A stretch of DNA of 51,130 nt, taken from Planctomycetota bacterium. Lineage in GTDB: Bacteria; Planctomycetota; Planctomycetia; Gemmatales; Gemmataceae. The notes beneath the pieces were generated by a model that worked only from the letters and a program-made list of their open reading frames with translations, searched no databases and was not told where the DNA came from. A program made the translations under genes and the position numbers. The stretch spans positions 1-51,130 of the forward strand of contig JACPPF010000155.1 in NCBI GenBank assembly GCA_016191165.1. The letters run 5' to 3'. Shown here one piece after another: positions 4,183 to 41,280 of this stretch; positions within the stretch are counted from its first letter, which is position 1, and each line of letters begins with the position of its first letter.

Positions 4183-4354
4183 CGCAAGCGCGCAATGCGC
4201 GCTATGGACCCTTCCGGCCTGGTACGGCTATTAACCCGTGCCCCTCTACCCCAGGGTCGAGGAGTCAGGCTCGCAGGGGAAAGCATGGCGGCGAACCCGC
4301 CTCACGCGAATTGATACACATTCGATGGGGCGGTTAATCGTGTAGCATGTCGTT

Positions 4355-6607
4355 GTGCTGAAACTGCTGACCACGCCGGCGACGAACGACCGAAGCCCGC
4401 GTTACATGGAGCGAGCCCTTGCAGCGATCCATCAGAGCCATCGGGTCAGCGAGCCTATCACATTCATCTACGGATCCACGGCGGGGCGAGTCGGTCTGTT
4501 TGTGCAATGTGCCGATGGCCTGGAAGAAATTGTCGCGGGCCCGATCACCGCGAATTATCCGAATTGCACTCTCGCCACCGTCGAGAAAGACGACGAGCTA
4601 CCGCCCGGATGGGAGACATGGACCGCCGAATTGGAGTTGGTGCCAGAGATTTATCCGATCCTCAGGCACGCTCAATTCGAGGATCTTCTGAACCACACTT
4701 TCGCAGATCCAGTGAGTGCCATTCTGCGAGCGGTCAAGCCAGAGGAGGGGATTCGTTGCGCGGTCGAGATCCATCTTGTTCCCGCCGGCCGGCGTCGCTG
4801 CCGAGCCGCACAACACGCACTTCGATTGCTCGACCGTGAATTCTTCCGTCACCACCATCGCCTTGCCGAGTTATTTGCCGAACACATTACTCGCCGTCGC
4901 ACATGGTTACTGGCGTGGGTGCTCGGACTTCTCGCCCGAACTACACCGCATCCGATCCGTACAACACTCGACACGTCCGCCAGCCGTCTCCACGACCGTG
5001 AGGAGAATCTACAGGCAGGATCAGACAAGATCGGCGGGCACCTTTTCGAGACGCACATCTTATTGATAACGAATGCGGCACCGGACGCTTCGGCGTTAGC
5101 GATTGATCGCCTGCGCCAGCTGGCCGGTGCACTCGGCGCGTTTACGCAATCCCGACTTGCACGATTCCACCTTGGGAGTATCCGGCGAGGCAAACCGTCT
5201 TCCCCGCGTGGGAAGGGGAGTCTGATGTCGCATGAGGAGATCGCGACGCTTTTCCATCCGCCGACCGCCGCCGTCGCAGCCGAGCAGATGCAAACGATGG
5301 AGTTTCGAGAGCTGGAACCACCGCCAAATTTTCTCTCCGGCACGGAGCCAGGCAGCGTAATCCTTGGCCGAGCGCTCTTTCGAGGAGATGCCCGCACGAT
5401 CGGCATGGACGCCGACGCCCGTAGACGCCATCTCTACGTCGTGGGCTCGACGGGCGCCGGCAAATCCACGCTTCTATTGAATCTCATCCACCAGGACATG
5501 ATTGCCGGCCGGGGACTGACCGTCATCGACGTTCACGGCGATTTGGCGGCATCCGTGATCGAACGCGTTCCCAAAAATCGCACGAACGATGCAATCATAT
5601 TCGACGCCGCCGCCGAGCATGTCGTCCCCTTCAATCCCTTGTCATGTCCAGATCCGAGTCGCATGGATACCGTGGTGTCCGATGTCGTCTCAGCCTTCAA
5701 GAAGCTCAACGATTCGTGGGGACCGCGGCTGGAGAATTTGCTTCGATGCTCGATCTTCATGGCCGTCGAACAGAATGGGACGTTCATGGAGACGCTTCGG
5801 GTTTTGACGGACAAGGCGTATCGCGATACGGCCATCGTCCAACTTTCAGACGAAGTCGTTCGCGCCTTTTGGCAAGGCGAATTCGCCTCGTGGAGCGCAT
5901 CGTATCGGACCGAGGCCATTGCTTCGGTCACGAACAAGCTCATGCCATTCCTGACGAGCCGGCAACTGCGAGCCATCATGTCGGGCTCGGCAAAGCAATC
6001 ACTGAATCTGCGCCATGTCATGGACGAGCAAAAAATCCTGATCGTGAATTTGAGTCGCGGCCGGCTCGGGCAAGACAACTCTACGCTCCTCGGCAGCTTG
6101 CTCCTGACCGCCATCGAGCAAACCGCCATGACGCGTGCGGACATACCAGAGGCGCAGCGCCGCGATCACTTCCTTTATCTCGACGAATTCCAATCGCTGA
6201 CGACGCCCTCAACGGCGACCATGCTGTCAGAATCGCGAAAGTATCGGCTTTGCCTGACGCTCAGTCATCAACTCACGCGGCAGCTGGATCCGGCCACGTA
6301 TCAATCCGTGATCGGAAACTGCGGGACGCTTCTGTCATTCCGCATCGGCATGGAGGACGCCGAACTGCTGGCGCCGGCGATGAGCAAGCATCCGGGGCAG
6401 CTTCTGCCAGCCGACCTTTGCAATCTGCCAAATTACACCGTGTACGCGCGGTTGCTGATTGACGGCGAACCGAGCAGGCCCTTCTCGCTTCGGACTCTTC
6501 CTTCAAAGGATATAATGGATTCAGAGCGTGCGGAGATTATCCGTCGCACATCGAAACATCGATATGCTCGCCCGGCCTCATTTAAAGGAGTAGCGCAATG
6601 CCTGTGA
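4355..6607 (+). CDS. VirD4/TraD-like coupling ATPase (type IV secretion family)
   Basis: Likely couples the processed element DNA to a conjugation channel at the inner membrane. The 750-residue protein starts at GTG 4355; an internal Met at residue 18 is an alternative. The N-terminal half (about 1-340) is divergent, with one possible hydrophobic segment near residues 184-196 (WLLAWVLGLLA). The ATPase domain begins near 350: Walker A VGSTGAGKST at about 363-372, TVIDVHGDL following, Walker B FLYLDEFQS near 605-613, then sensor-like LCLTLSHQL. Families that match are the VirD4/TraG and HerA/FtsK-related conjugation ATPases. It overlaps the next small gene by 10 bp. At 5200-5218 a G-rich palindromic stretch encodes SSPRGKGS, possibly an in-frame repeat insertion. 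Confidence 0.75.
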   Translation: MLKLLTTPATNDRSPRYMERALAAIHQSHRVSEPITFIYGSTAGRVGLFVQCADGLEEIVAGPITANYPNCTLATVEKDDELPPGWETWTAELELVPEIYPILRHAQFEDLLNHTFADPVSAILRAVKPEEGIRCAVEIHLVPAGRRRCRAAQHALRLLDREFFRHHHRLAELFAEHITRRRTWLLAWVLGLLARTTPHPIRTTLDTSASRLHDREENLQAGSDKIGGHLFETHILLITNAAPDASALAIDRLRQLAGALGAFTQSRLARFHLGSIRRGKPSSPRGKGSLMSHEEIATLFHPPTAAVAAEQMQTMEFRELEPPPNFLSGTEPGSVILGRALFRGDARTIGMDADARRRHLYVVGSTGAGKSTLLLNLIHQDMIAGRGLTVIDVHGDLAASVIERVPKNRTNDAIIFDAAAEHVVPFNPLSCPDPSRMDTVVSDVVSAFKKLNDSWGPRLENLLRCSIFMAVEQNGTFMETLRVLTDKAYRDTAIVQLSDEVVRAFWQGEFASWSASYRTEAIASVTNKLMPFLTSRQLRAIMSGSAKQSLNLRHVMDEQKILIVNLSRGRLGQDNSTLLGSLLLTAIEQTAMTRADIPEAQRRDHFLYLDEFQSLTTPSTATMLSESRKYRLCLTLSHQLTRQLDPATYQSVIGNCGTLLSFRIGMEDAELLAPAMSKHPGQLLPADLCNLPNYTVYARLLIDGEPSRPFSLRTLPSKDIMDSERAEIIRRTSKHRYARPASFKGVAQCL

Positions 6608-36480: not shown

Positions 36481-36813
36481 ATGCGTTATGAAATCATCTT
36501 GGCTCCGGAAGCCGTGGACGATTTGGCACGCCTCAAGGCGAACCGTCGCGCGACAGTCAAGGCAGCGCTGGAGCAACACCTGCGGCACGAACCGGCGAAA
36601 GTCAGCAAGAGCCACGTCAAACGCCTGCGTGGCCTGTCTCACCCCCAATATCGCTTGCGGGTTGACGACGTGCGCGTATTCTACGACATAACCGAAAAAA
36701 CGGTGGAGGTCCTGGCCATTGTCTCCAAAACCGATGCGAACGCCTGGCTCGCGCAAGCAGCCAAACGGGAAAACCAAAGCGGAGAAACCGATGAAGAAGG
36801 CAGCGCTATCTGA
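36481..36813 (+). CDS. RelE/ParE-family toxin
   Basis: 110 residues. The fold is recognisable from MRYEIILAPEAVDDLARLK, then LRGLSHPQYRLRVDDVRVFYDI and VEVLAIVSKTDANAWL, matching ParE/RelE toxins that cleave mRNA at the ribosome or block gyrase. The C-terminal tail beyond about residue 95 is acidic and overlaps the antitoxin reading frame. Gene order is toxin first, as in HigBA and some ParE/Phd pairs. Neighbours are the DGR locus downstream and a divergent secreted-protein gene. Confidence 0.85.
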   Translation: MRYEIILAPEAVDDLARLKANRRATVKAALEQHLRHEPAKVSKSHVKRLRGLSHPQYRLRVDDVRVFYDITEKTVEVLAIVSKTDANAWLAQAAKRENQSGETDEEGSAI

Positions 36814-37033
36814 CGTCAAGGACGACCTGTCGAAATATCTGCGCCTGGCCGAAAAGGAGGGAATCGTCATCACCCGTCACGGCAAACCAGCCGGGGTTCT
36901 GATCGGCTTTGCCGACGAGGACGATTGGTTTGACTATTGTCTGGAAAACGATCCGCGGTTTGTCGAACGGATCGCCGCCGCCCGGCAGAAACTGCGATCC
37001 GGCCAGGGTGTGCGGCTGGAAGACACCGAGTAA
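36791..37033 (+). CDS. Phd/YefM-family antitoxin
   Basis: 80 residues from ATG 36791, preceded by GGAGA, overlapping the toxin end by 23 bp, so translation is coupled. Phd/YefM features are the N-terminal DNA-binding part MKKAALSDVKDDLSKYLRLA, and VITRHGKPAGVLIGF. The acidic C-terminal half (FADEDDWFDYCLENDPRF) is the likely toxin-binding tail. The pair may stabilise this locus. Confidence 0.87.
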   Translation: MKKAALSDVKDDLSKYLRLAEKEGIVITRHGKPAGVLIGFADEDDWFDYCLENDPRFVERIAAARQKLRSGQGVRLEDTE

Positions 37034-37180: not shown

Positions 37181-37691
37181 GACTAATCAAATCTTTAATG
37201 GACGGAGGTCCCACCTGGAGAAAATCAACAGCCCGGCAGGGCCTTCGAGCCTTCCGGCCTACCAGACCTGCTAGGCCTAAGCATCATTTGGCCGGGCCGT
37301 CTATTTGGCGACGCGACGCGGGACAACCGCCTGGACTTTGCACCCTGCAATTGCCGATAATCTTAATGCGGGCCAGGGTCGAGCTTCGCGGTGGTTCGTG
37401 GAACAATCATCCCATGAACCTTCGCTCCGCCAACCGTAACAGGAACGAGCCCACGAACCTCAACAACAACATCGGGTTCCGCGTTTGTTCCTGCCTGCAC
37501 TTCCGAAACTGCCAGTCCGGTAGCCCAGAATCGGCAGGTTCACGAATCTGCCGAGCGCGGCGCCGGAAGTCCTGACCCTGTTCCGGCCATGCCTAGATGC
37601 TTCGGCAGGCGAACAGAAATGCGTGCCCGCATCAGTCTGGTAGGCGCGAGCCGAAGGCCTGATGTGGGACCTTTATCTCAAAGAGACCCTG
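37181..37691. other. Non-coding region carrying the DGR template repeat
   Basis: No supported gene. An open frame runs over 36937-37575 but its ribosome site and codon pattern are poor, and it is explained by the template repeat at 37383-37497, which reads in the same sense as the target protein's C-terminus. The 194 nt between the repeat and avd would belong to the template RNA that primes reverse transcription in known DGRs. Confidence 0.65.
37383..37497 (+). repeat. DGR template repeat (TR), 115 bp
   Basis: It matches the variable repeat over 115 bp without gaps. It has 26 adenines, mostly in AAC codons of the target frame; 12 of them are changed in the variable repeat, and none of the 89 other bases is. 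The last 24 bases (37474-37497) lack adenine and are identical in both, as expected for the initiation-of-homology region. It is presumably transcribed as part of a non-coding RNA upstream of avd. Confidence 0.96.
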
Positions 37692-38051
37692 ATGGCCAAG
37701 GATCTGACCATTCTGAGTGATTTTTACGACCTGATGAAATACATGACGGAACGAATTGAGAAATTCCCGCGTCATCACCGCTATAGTCTCGGCCTGTCGA
37801 TGGAGAATCGGCTGCAACAAATCCTCGGCGCCTTGATCCGCGCCAAATACACAGGCGCCCATGAATCCAAGCGATTGCTGCTCGCAGATGTCAACATCGA
37901 ACTAGAGGTCCTACGCTATCAGGCGCGATTGGCGTTGGAGTGCCGTTGTCTTGCTCCCAATAGCCATGCCCATGCGGCCAAACTGCTGGAATGGGTCGGT
38001 GCCCAAGTGGGCGGTTGGCTGCGCTCGTTGCGTTCGCCCTCAAACCCATGA
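37692..38051 (+). CDS. avd: DGR accessory variability determinant Avd
   Basis: 119 residues from ATG 37692 (after AAAGAGA); an in-frame ATG at 37662 would add ten residues. Avd forms a pentameric four-helix-bundle barrel that binds template RNA and the reverse transcriptase. Family features seen are the four predicted helices and the conserved IEKFPRHHRYSLGLSMENRL near 22-41. The stop overlaps the RT start as ATGA (38048-38051), so the two proteins are translationally coupled. It resembles the bacterial 23S-intervening-sequence (S23) protein fold, but the RT linkage and nearby template identify it as Avd. Confidence 0.92.
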   Translation: MAKDLTILSDFYDLMKYMTERIEKFPRHHRYSLGLSMENRLQQILGALIRAKYTGAHESKRLLLADVNIELEVLRYQARLALECRCLAPNSHAHAAKLLEWVGAQVGGWLRSLRSPSNP

Positions 38052-39157
38052 AACGCCACGGTAAGCTCTGGCCTGACCTCCTCGCCTGGGAGAATCTGCT
38101 CCGGGCCGCTCGCAATGCGCGGCGAGGGAAAAGGCATCGCGATGTGGTGCTACGTTTCGATTTCCATCTCGAACGCAACCTTCTCGATTTGCAGCGCGAA
38201 CTCGCCGCCGGCTCCTATCGGCCTGGTCCATTCCGAAACCACTGGATCGCCCACCCGAAGCGGCGTCTCATTTCGGCGGCGCCGTATCGTGATCGCGTTG
38301 TCCATCATGCGTTGATGAACGTGCTTGTGCCGATTCTGGATCGGCATTTTCATCCCGATACCTATGCTTGCCGGGCAGGCAAGGGGACCCATGCCGCCGT
38401 GCGCCGCTTGCAAGCCCTCATGCGCCGCAATTCCTGGGTGCTACAGTGCGACTTGCGCAAGTTTTTCCCTAGTATCGACCACGAAATCCTGAAAGCGACC
38501 TTCCGCACCCTCATCAAAGATCAAACCCTTCTCGCCCTGATGGACCGCATCGTTGATGCCGGTAATGAACAGGAGCCGGTTTGCGAATGGTTTCCAGGCG
38601 ACGATTTGTGGACGGCCCTGGAGCGCCGGCGGGGGCTTCCCATTGGGAACCTGACCAGCCAGTGGTTCGCCAATTGGTACCTGAACCGCTTTGACCATAT
38701 GATGACCAGCCATTTCGGAGCGGGCGGTTACGTGCGGTATTGCGATGATTTTCTCATTCTCGATCAATCCAGGCAGCGCGTTCTGGAGCTTCTCGAAGCT
38801 GCGCGCGAAGCGTTGGGAGACTTGCGATTGCGAATTCACCCGCACCGGTGTGTTGTCACCCAAACGCGCGGATTGCTTCGTTTTGTCGGTTACCGGGTTG
38901 GGCCGCGGATGATCAAACTGCCGAAAACGAACGTGCGAAAATTTCTTCGCCGGCTGCGCTGGTTGAAGGGGGCTTTTGCCGACCGACGGTTGGGGACCCA
39001 TGAAATCGACAAACGGCTGCAAAGCTGGCTGGGTCATTCTAAACAGGCGAACACTAAGCATTTGGTGAAGCGGCTGGCCAAGGATTGGATTTTTTCGCGC
39101 CGCGCGCCCTCACTTCGTGAGGGCGCGAAAGAAGAAAAAGAAAAGGGAAAAGGGTAA
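38048..39157 (+). CDS. DGR-type reverse transcriptase
   Basis: Copies the template RNA into cDNA with errors at adenines. It is 369 residues from ATG 38048. RT motifs: CDLRKFFPSIDHE (Asp135), GLPIGNLTSQWFANWYLNRF at 196-215, and the active site YCDDF at 231-235 (Asp233, Asp234). In DGR enzymes the motif-4 segment is (I/L)GNxxSQ, where group II intron and retroviral enzymes have QG; IGNLTSQ fits. No maturase or endonuclease domain is present, which excludes a group II intron protein. The C-terminus from about 350 is low complexity (KEEKEKGKG) and contains a hairpin-forming stretch. It is convergent with the target gene, with 23 bp between stops. Confidence 0.95.
   Translation: MKRHGKLWPDLLAWENLLRAARNARRGKRHRDVVLRFDFHLERNLLDLQRELAAGSYRPGPFRNHWIAHPKRRLISAAPYRDRVVHHALMNVLVPILDRHFHPDTYACRAGKGTHAAVRRLQALMRRNSWVLQCDLRKFFPSIDHEILKATFRTLIKDQTLLALMDRIVDAGNEQEPVCEWFPGDDLWTALERRRGLPIGNLTSQWFANWYLNRFDHMMTSHFGAGGYVRYCDDFLILDQSRQRVLELLEAAREALGDLRLRIHPHRCVVTQTRGLLRFVGYRVGPRMIKLPKTNVRKFLRRLRWLKGAFADRRLGTHEIDKRLQSWLGHSKQANTKHLVKRLAKDWIFSRRAPSLREGAKEEKEKGKG
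39103..39127. repeat. GC-rich hairpin between RT and variable repeat
   Basis: CGCGCCCTCAC at 39103-39113 and GTGAGGGCGCG at 39117-39127 form an 11-bp stem with a 3-nt loop. It lies in the last codons of the RT gene and 59 bp beyond the variable repeat's 3' end. It may be a shared terminator or the stem-loop that assists retrohoming in several DGRs. Confidence 0.8.
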
Positions 39158-39180
39158 TAGATTAAAGTACACAGTGTAAA

Positions 39181-41280
39181 TCAGTCCAGGCAGGAACAAA
39201 CGCGGAACCCGACGTCGTTGTAGAGGAGCGTGGGCTCGTTCCTGCGACGGTCGGCGGAGCGAAGGATCAAGGGATGAATGTGCCACGAACCACCGCGAAG
39301 CAAATGTTCACTTCCCGTCGCCGGCCCGGTGGGATCGGTCACTGGCTTGCTGGGATATTCGCCATAAAAATCCGCGCACCACTCCCACACGTTGCCGTGC
39401 ATGTCGTATAGGCCCCAGTCGTTTGCATGCTTCTGCCCGACAGGATGGGTTTTCGATCCAGAGTTTTCGGAAAACCAGGCGTATGGACCAAGGACGCCCG
39501 GATTGTCGCCGAAGCAATACGCGGTCTGCGAACCGGCGCGACAGGCGTATTCCCATTCCGCTTCGGTCGGTAGACGGTAGGTGTGCCCGTCCTTCGCCCC
39601 AAGCTTCTTGCAAAACGCGCAGGCGTCGTTCCACGAAACCCTTTCGACTGGCAAATCGTCTCCCTTGAAATGGCTGGGGCTGTTTCCCATGACCGCTTGC
39701 CATTGCGCCTGCGTGACTTGATGGATGCCAAGGTGGAACCCCTTGGCGATTGTGACGCGGTGGGGCGTCTCATCGTCGAAGCGATCTTTTTCGCCCGGCG
39801 GACTGCCCATGGTGAACGTGTCGGGCGGAATCCAGGCGAACTTCATGCCGAGCTGGTTGGTGACGATGTCGCCGGGCTTGCGGGTTGATGACGATTGCGC
39901 GGGCGCTACCCTGGCGACGGGGATGACGGTGGGGGGGTCCGGTTCACGGGTCGGCGATCCCGACGGCTCGCTGCGCTCGCCATCGGGCATGCGGGCGAGT
40001 TTGACAATTCGTTCATGCAACTCCTGCGCATCTTTCGGCCGATCGTCCACGTCTTGAGCCATGCATTCGCCCAGAAGCTGAACGTGCCCATCGGCGAGGC
40101 CCAGGGCGCGCAAGCGTTTGTCCCAGCCCCAGCCGGTGGGTGCGGAGCGGGACAGGTCGCGCAGCAACAGCTGGTAGCCGATGACGCCCAGGGCGAAGAC
40201 GTCGTCGCGCGGGTCGGGATCCTCGCCGCGCTGTTGCTGCGGCGATGCGTACAGCGGTGTGCAGGCGTAGCGCAGCGTGCCCAGCGATTTGGGCATTGCC
40301 GTGGCGATGCGCGATTGATCGAGCTGTTTTTTCGCCGCGATATGGCCGATGCCGAAGTCGGCGATCAAGAGGTGCAGTTTTTTGGCGAGCCGGCGCACGA
40401 GGATGTTGGCGGGCTTGAGGTCGCGATGGAGGATTGGTTCGGGCAGGCGATGGAACTGCCCGACGATCATGGCGAGATTTTGCCAGATCGCCAGAGCCGT
40501 GGGCACGCGATCGACGCCGGGCTGTTCGTTCCACTCGTTGACCATGCCCGCGAGGTCGCCGCCCTCGATGAGTTCGTATTGCAGCCACGGGGGCGAACTG
40601 TCGAGCTTGTAGTTTTGCAGCGTGACGACGCCCTTGACGTTGGCTAGGCGAACGCGGCCAATGATTGCCCTTTCGTGGTTCAATTGCAGCTGGCGCTTCG
40701 CGTCGGGGTCGGTGCAGAACTTGAACGCGGCGACAAAGCTGGCGTCGTCGATGCGGTGCGCCTTCCAGACTTCGCCCTGCCCGCCGCGGCCCAGCAGTTC
40801 GACAAGTTCCCAGTCACCATGCAAACAGGAAGGCCGTTCGCCCGGTTGAAACTGCGCGAGCCCGACGGGCAAAAGCGCGAGTACGTCGGCCGGGCCCTTG
40901 AACGCCAGCGTCGCAGGCACGGTCGTTCCCGATGGGTCGGCCGGGCGCTTGAGCGCTTGCCGGGTGGCGCCGGGAATCTGCATCAGGTATTGCGAAAGGC
41001 CTTGCTTCATTTCCGGGGAGGCTTGCGGCGCCAGTTCGGCGACGACCTGGGCGACGATCTGCTTGAGTTGCTCGGCCGGAATGGGCCTGGCGACCTCGGC
41101 CAGCTCGGCGCGTGCCTGGCCTTCGCTCGCTTCACCGACCCAGGCCTTGTAGAAATCGTCGCCGACCTCGCACATGTCGGCGAGCAGGTCCAAACCCGCG
41201 GCCTTGGCGATCCACTTGGGAACCTTCGGGAGCACGGCCTTGCCGGCGCAGCGCATGACTCGCTTGATCTTGTCGAACAT
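39181..41280 (-). CDS. DGR target: Ser/Thr kinase fused to FGE-sulfatase/C-type-lectin-fold domain
   Basis: 699 residues. About 1-145 is a helical N-terminal region (GLDLLADMCEVGDDFYKAW) of unknown role. The kinase domain spans about 155-430: glycine loop LGRGGQGEVW at 163-172, VAAFK with Lys187, HRDLKPANIL at 285-294 and DFG at 308-310, all intact. A Pro/Ser/Thr-rich linker (about 431-470) contains a 29-nt palindromic repeat. The formylglycine-generating-enzyme fold covers about 470-699 (FAWIPPDTFTMGSPPGE, RLPTEAEWEYACRAG, YDMHGNVWEW). Its C-terminus, residues 661-697, is encoded by the variable repeat. Catalytic cysteines of true formylglycine enzymes are absent (RSAD where they have RCA), so this end is a binding surface. 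I infer a kinase whose ligand-sensing module is hypermutated. No transmembrane helix or signal peptide is seen, so it is probably cytoplasmic. Confidence 0.92.
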   Translation of the reverse strand: MFDKIKRVMRCAGKAVLPKVPKWIAKAAGLDLLADMCEVGDDFYKAWVGEASEGQARAELAEVARPIPAEQLKQIVAQVVAELAPQASPEMKQGLSQYLMQIPGATRQALKRPADPSGTTVPATLAFKGPADVLALLPVGLAQFQPGERPSCLHGDWELVELLGRGGQGEVWKAHRIDDASFVAAFKFCTDPDAKRQLQLNHERAIIGRVRLANVKGVVTLQNYKLDSSPPWLQYELIEGGDLAGMVNEWNEQPGVDRVPTALAIWQNLAMIVGQFHRLPEPILHRDLKPANILVRRLAKKLHLLIADFGIGHIAAKKQLDQSRIATAMPKSLGTLRYACTPLYASPQQQRGEDPDPRDDVFALGVIGYQLLLRDLSRSAPTGWGWDKRLRALGLADGHVQLLGECMAQDVDDRPKDAQELHERIVKLARMPDGERSEPSGSPTREPDPPTVIPVARVAPAQSSSTRKPGDIVTNQLGMKFAWIPPDTFTMGSPPGEKDRFDDETPHRVTIAKGFHLGIHQVTQAQWQAVMGNSPSHFKGDDLPVERVSWNDACAFCKKLGAKDGHTYRLPTEAEWEYACRAGSQTAYCFGDNPGVLGPYAWFSENSGSKTHPVGQKHANDWGLYDMHGNVWEWCADFYGEYPSKPVTDPTGPATGSEHLLRGGSWHIHPLILRSADRRRNEPTLLYNDVGFRVCSCLD
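39187..39301 (-). repeat. DGR variable repeat (VR), 115 bp
   Basis: On the minus strand this aligns with the template 37383-37497 end to end. Substitutions change codons for residues 667, 668, 671, 672, 677, 679, 685, 687, 689 and 690, for example AAC to CAC, ATC, GAC, CGC, CTC and TAC. Several other template AAC codons (681, 688) are unchanged here. The conserved 3' end encodes GFRVCSCL. Confidence 0.96.
39959..39987. repeat. 29-nt palindromic repeat in the DGR target linker, in frame
   Basis: Arms CCCGACGGC and GCCATCGGG (8 of 9 pair, one G-T) surround the loop TCGCTGCGCTC, which is the complement of GAGCGCAGCGA found in the intergenic copies. It encodes PDGERSEPSG in the linker between kinase and lectin-fold domains. 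Confidence 0.8.

Follow-up and report, generated by a model that had tools for sequence, protein, structure and literature searches.

A chromosomal diversity-generating retroelement in a planctomycete, its spacer RNA and the sequences that follow its variable repeat

The whole stretch of DNA analysed here (51,130 nucleotides, contig JACPPF010000155.1 of the Gemmataceae assembly GCA_016191165.1), hereafter the window, almost certainly carries a complete chromosomal diversity-generating retroelement (DGR), in which RNA of a template repeat (TR) and its spacer is turned into cDNA by a reverse transcriptase (RT) with Avd, and the variable repeat (VR) of a kinase-FGE gene is thereby rewritten (Table 1). 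Its parts are all in place, the VR differs from the TR at adenines only, the template adenines are arranged to suit the reading frame of the target, and both the spacer RNA and the sequences beside the target are conserved among relatives. A transcript with the TR and the structured spacer would be copied by RT-Avd with errors opposite adenines, and the resulting cDNA would replace the VR of the convergent kinase-FGE gene. Published DGRs already include examples with Avd, with FGE/C-type-lectin targets and with targets fused to a kinase (PMC7517822, PMC10907252). The retroelement itself is thus ordinary-looking, and the conserved RNA and the tract at the target are the parts worth following.

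What is known of the DGR mechanism comes mainly from a single phage element. Moreover, the route of the cDNA to and into its target is still an open question (PMC12875486). In this regard, we tentatively propose, giving it a little under an even chance, that the cellular DGRs of this lineage in Planctomycetota, Myxococcota and Cyanobacteria share a hitherto undescribed homing signal, and that in the window one such machinery replaced another at a target gene that was already there. The signal would consist of a spacer RNA of ~165 nt paired to the 3' boundary of the TR and, at the target, of a pyrimidine tract with a 7-8-bp period together with a C(GNA)G DNA mini-hairpin in the sense strand, by which the target strand would be kept open. 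Spacer RNA and tract offer a searchable signature for cellular DGRs, as seen in 22 further planctomycete loci and four cyanobacterial plasmids, and, if the proposal is true, remote or orphan TRs would become predictable and targets for cellular DGRs designable.

Table 1. Features of the retroelement, in positions of the window
Feature	Position	Strand	Remarks
Sp2, truncated antisense spacer from a different DGR lineage	37227..37347	-	
TR	37383..37497	+	115 bp, 26 adenines
TR 3' boundary (IMH*-like)	37496..37502	+	TGCACTT; 37498 is C in TR, G in VR
Sp1, conserved structured spacer RNA between TR and avd	37498..37660	+	CM R1 match 37478-37668, 160 bits
Avd, 129 aa	37662..38051	+	PF22296, 1.9e-16; PHROG 3206 ('Avd protein of DGR'), 2e-23
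DGR reverse transcriptase, 369 aa	38048..39157	+	IGNLTSQ and YCDD motifs
Hairpin	39103..39127	- (sense strand of target)	11-bp stem, GAA loop closed by C-G
Pyrimidine-rich tract, directly 3' of target stop codon	39128..39180	-	7-8-bp periodic
VR	39187..39301	-	3' end of target; stops 3 bases short of stop codon
Target protein, 699 aa, Ser/Thr kinase + FGE	39181..41280	-	ORF open

Template, variable repeat and encoded proteins

The retroelement has its TR, spacer, avd and RT gene in this order on the plus strand, with the target gene convergent. Adenine-patterned TR and VR, intact RT, Avd, a VR in a predicted lectin fold, an IMH/IMH* pair, a hairpin and a spacer RNA are all found, the hairpin at a greater distance from the VR than the 4-34 bp reported for phage DGRs. 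No phage structural genes occur among the neighbouring ORFs that were read, and the DGR is chromosomal. Directly upstream, genes for a ParE/RelE-like toxin and then a Phd/YefM-like antitoxin are found at 36481-37033 on the plus strand. A DNA search of the 7.2-Mb host genome, which is 95% complete, answered the suggestion of a preliminary description of this locus that other VR copies be sought: the genome holds this TR and this VR, and no second copy of either.

Direct alignment of the TR with the reverse complement of the VR gave back exactly the coordinates and the gapless 115 bp of that description, with 103 identical positions and 12 mismatches. As had been claimed, all 12 sit at adenines of the TR (A to T in five cases, to G in four and to C in three) and the 89 non-adenine positions are all unchanged in the VR. 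With 26 adenines in 115 bases, such a distribution has a chance probability of 1.6e-9 (hypergeometric). An adenine-only difference between TR and VR is the accepted signature of DGR retrohoming, and by this pattern mutagenesis has taken place at the DGR of the window in the past. The limit of 115 bp was a choice made in the preliminary description, and the very next base, number 116, is C in the TR (37498) and G in the VR (39186), followed by ACT in both. As most related loci show this C/G difference at the equivalent position, we read it as the IMH*/IMH boundary mark and not as a counter-example to the adenine bias; it would set the direction of transfer from TR to VR.

The same bias was found when 50 locus stretches of relatives were compared with themselves, which yielded TR/VR pairs in 41, a few of them duplicates. 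Outside the 3' boundary, 56% of the TR adenines (769/1378) differ from the VR, against 0.6% of the non-adenine bases (25/4256); the first A of AA is altered in 70% and the second A in AAY in 48%. Ordinary duplication or gene conversion, with no reverse transcription, can also yield near-identical repeats, but the confinement of 12 of 12 changes to adenines (1.6e-9) and the recurrence of this bias in ~40 related loci refute such an origin, to which we assign a negligible probability.

The TR is moreover arranged with regard to the reading frame of its target. All 12 changes in the VR are nonsynonymous and lie at the first or second position of a codon, and none of the 26 TR adenines occupies a third position. 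Random filling of these adenines gives ~1e15 proteins, with up to 16 codons altered and no stop codon. In the target protein, a kinase domain (aa 158-375) with its glycine loop (GRGGQGEV), HRD (HRDLKPAN) and DFG motifs is followed by an FGE-sulfatase/C-type-lectin domain (aa 483-694; FGE-sulfatase match 2e-49), and the VR encodes aa 661-698, which puts it at the 3' end of a target with a predicted C-type-lectin fold. The best relative in the PDB is the DGR variable protein TvpA (2y3c). An AlphaFold model of the lectin domain from seven sequences had a mean pLDDT of 54, too low to be of use. The VR part of the lectin-fold domain is where known DGR proteins bind their ligand. The kinase probably relays such binding, so that the protein would be a sensor of a variable ligand and further evidence that bacteria vary signalling sensors by means of DGRs. 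Within the 8-locus RT clade of the window, targets include caspase-FGE, NACHT-FGE and SIR2-NACHT-FGE proteins, and targets of the NACHT/SIR2/caspase-FGE type have been proposed as immune sensors (PMC10907252). Two loci have two VRs each, L080 (3421-5166 and 7165-8979) and L076 (1687-4653 and 6445-9741), in caspase-FGE and NACHT/SIR2-FGE genes that are likely immune sensors. The FGE paralogs examined in the genome of the window, several with rough reading frames that run past the domain, have neither a tract nor TR-like ends. The closest of them in C-terminal sequence (L056, contig C33 of G000), whose LRGGSW...GFRLCFFLD resembles the end of the VR, lacks TR identity and tract and is possibly a former target.

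Avd and a DGR-type RT with IGNLTSQ and YCDD had also been placed between the two repeats, in agreement with the profile and PDB matches (Table 1 for Avd; for the RT, PF00078 at 7e-21, PHROG 1423 at 9e-109 and PDB 8ub7 at 3.7e-48). The RT aligns over almost its entire length with 8ub7_A (file title 'Reverse transcriptase'), which from its length and context we take to be the BPP-1 RT. An inactivated RT would, in the preliminary description, have counted against its reading; both motifs are present and no stop interrupts the gene. The start codon of avd is possibly the ATG at 37692. Avd-like proteins encoded elsewhere in the genome (L071-L073, on contigs C175, C69 and C135) have no TR/VR or DGR RT nearby and, for this reason, these bAvd-like proteins are probably not DGR parts.

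A structured spacer RNA

About 165 nt 3' of the TR are conserved in Planctomycetia, Phycisphaerae and one Myxococcota metagenome-assembled genome. The consensus fold of this spacer, Sp1, obtained with RNAalifold, comprises 40 pairs in six helices, one of which joins the 3' boundary of the TR (CACTTTC) with GAAAGT. Strong covariation was also observed: 93.8% of the pair cells are paired, compared with 80.4% after column shuffling and 30-49% in slid controls, and 21 pairs show changes on both sides. There is no match to Sp1 in Rfam. A covariance model built from eight loci, with rough E-values and an alignment left without manual correction, finds Sp1 in 22 further planctomycete loci, at the end of the TR wherever the TR is known, some of them without a local VR. 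The same model also matches four cyanobacterial plasmid DGRs. At six loci (L116, L119, L123, L130, L143 and L145), a spacer RNA lies beside a DGR RT with no TR/VR pair within the available stretch, the target being beyond the contig end or remote.

The spacer of BPP-1 recruits RT-Avd and primes the cDNA (PMC12875486), and from its equivalent position we infer the same role for Sp1, which would recruit RT-Avd and supply the priming site. Beyond the BPP-1 spacer, no description of a spacer of the Sp1 type was found in the open-access literature searched.

Pyrimidine tract and hairpin after the variable repeat

In the window, the tract that follows the target gene overlaps the last codons of the RT gene. 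Defined as at least 70% pyrimidine in 50 nt, such tracts follow 43% of the scored VRs, compared with 2% of 207 other ORF ends and no TR at all. A 7-8-bp period is seen in 27 tracts, with z of 13-14 against base shuffles, values inflated by related copies. Moreover, the presence of a tract is clustered on the RT tree (0 of 500 shuffles as low), with eight of eight in the clade of the window. As a held-out check, all nine VRs of the four cyanobacterial plasmids were found to have a tract (0.78-0.95) with the same period. The open-access literature searched holds no description of the pyrimidine tract.

A C(GNA)G hairpin in the sense strand was found after 20 of 37 VRs, compared with none of 34 TRs, one of 164 other ORF ends and none of the 37 antisense strands; this set of 37 leaves out, by a choice made post hoc, a distinct RT clade with purine-rich flanks, where the hairpin occurs after 2 of 16 VRs. 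The loci L144 and L146-L153, a clade of their own in the RT tree, mostly have purine- and G-rich sequence after the VR in place of a pyrimidine tract and may use another target signal. Hairpin length alone was tried as a mark of VRs and did not separate VR from TR flanks, whereas the GNA loop did. Similar short hairpins follow some of the cyanobacterial VRs, the strict GNA loop being absent. In the window, the hairpin is located 55 nt past the end of the VR alignment, and the DNA fold of the flank has a z of -4.4. Since hairpins with GRNA tetraloops 4-34 bp after the VR are published for phage DGRs (PMC3240598) and GRA triloops for the DUSEL4 DGRs (PMC4372165), it is of a known kind. It is to the sense strand that the cDNA is complementary, and a stem-loop has been proposed to make this strand stay open for longer (PMC12875486), a proposal with which the strand bias of the hairpins fits. 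In this line, pyrimidine tract and GNA hairpin together would hold the strand open to the incoming cDNA.

Both elements come after a stop codon, which is also terminator territory, and could be ordinary 3' gene ends, either terminators or genome-wide repeats, a reading to which the missing gene-end control for the cyanobacterial tracts lends some weight. We consider it rather unlikely, given how rare tracts and GNA hairpins are at other ORF ends and their absence from TRs and, for the hairpin, from antisense strands. Moreover, the T/C tract precedes the hairpin and few T follow it on average, the reverse of an intrinsic terminator, and the presence of the tract tracks the RT clade. The hairpin and part of the tract (39103-39157) overlap the RT gene at its 3' end, on the opposite strand, so that the C-terminal tail of the RT, SLREGAKEEKEKGKG, is encoded by the complement of the putative homing signal; the RTs of L078 and L080 have similar charged C-terminal tails.

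Locus history and comparison with known systems

Between the toxin-antitoxin genes and the TR lies a second, antisense spacer, Sp2, which in BLAST matches the L117 spacer at 81% identity over 115 bp and the spacer of the same-genus locus L064 at 77% over 121 bp. The spacer covariance model matches this region at 37231-37389 of the minus strand (E 2.9e-5). An artefact of searching the complement of a structured RNA was considered for Sp2 and excluded by the 81% match to L117. Sp2 is colinear with the target gene and ends near the start of the present TR, and the loci L078 and L080 have no antisense spacer. At this one locus, these data suggest that one DGR replaced another: an older DGR of the order target-avd-RT-TR-spacer would have had its machinery supplanted by that of the present DGR, which went in with the opposite orientation. 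It is quite possible, if somewhat doubtful, that Sp2 came instead from an unrelated neighbouring DGR and is uninformative on the present target, as the spacer alone remains and no trace of RT2, Avd2 or TR2 was found; the colinearity of Sp2 with the target, in the target ... spacer order of L064, and its end near the present TR start argue for the replacement. Comparison within the genus gave no clean empty site, a pabB block being conserved while the left side differs.

The RT tree places the window, with a support of 98/90, beside the planctomycete loci L078 and L080, which have the same convergent order, and apart from L064; this points to horizontal transfer of the DGR of the window. L064, in genome G005, is the clear DGR of the same RT family in one of the six other genomes of the genus; its order is target-avd-RT-TR and its target joins kinase and FGE. 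The target ORF of L064 is seemingly split by a frameshift inside the FGE domain (4353-4566), from error or decay. The scarcity of DGRs in the genus, the broken remnant of another DGR at the locus and the single VR seen in one genome would all suit a fossil, once active and no longer working in its host lineage. We regard this as distinctly improbable, because each of RT, Avd, TR, spacer RNA and target ORF is intact, the conserved structure of the spacer has been preserved, and TR and VR agree at all 89 non-adenine positions.

Altogether, the closest likeness is with cyanobacterial cellular DGRs, in which kinase, caspase and other N-terminal domains are fused to C-type-lectin domains (Vallota-Eastman et al. 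2020, PMC7517822). The RT of the window is 44-48% identical to plasmid RTs of Fischerella, Anabaena, Nostoc and Acaryochloris, and Avd, FGE/lectin targets, an Sp1-type spacer RNA and the pyrimidine tract are shared. In contrast, the window belongs to a planctomycete, has its TR upstream of avd and its target convergent with the RT, and carries an antisense remnant of another DGR. The clade-5 DGRs, which diversify putative antigen sensors (Dore et al. 2024, PMC10907252), likewise combine FGE/C-type-lectin targets with signalling or effector domains, and the RT of the window shares 44-48% identity with cyanobacterial RTs of this group; unlike these DGRs, the window has no recognised NTPase, adapter or effector gene directly adjoining the locus.

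BPP-1 (PMC3240598) resembles the window in its RT, its Avd, its adenine pattern, the IMH/IMH* difference and a hairpin after the VR. It differs in that its hairpin has a GAAA tetraloop and stands a few bases past the VR, that a pyrimidine tract is absent (the pyrimidine fraction of its VR flank is 0.42), that its target is encoded on the same strand and that the Sp1 covariance model does not match it; conversely, the window has neither the GRNA tetraloop at 4-34 bp from the VR nor the phage location of BPP-1-type elements. The nanoarchaeal DUSEL4 DGRs (PMC4372165) have their hairpin inside the target gene, unlike that of the window, and share with it a trinucleotide (GRA) loop and an IMH that differs between TR and VR. 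Finally, the solved chain of Treponema TvpA (PDB 2y3c) is without a kinase domain, but it is the closest solved lectin domain to that of the target and has its VR at the same C-terminal position.
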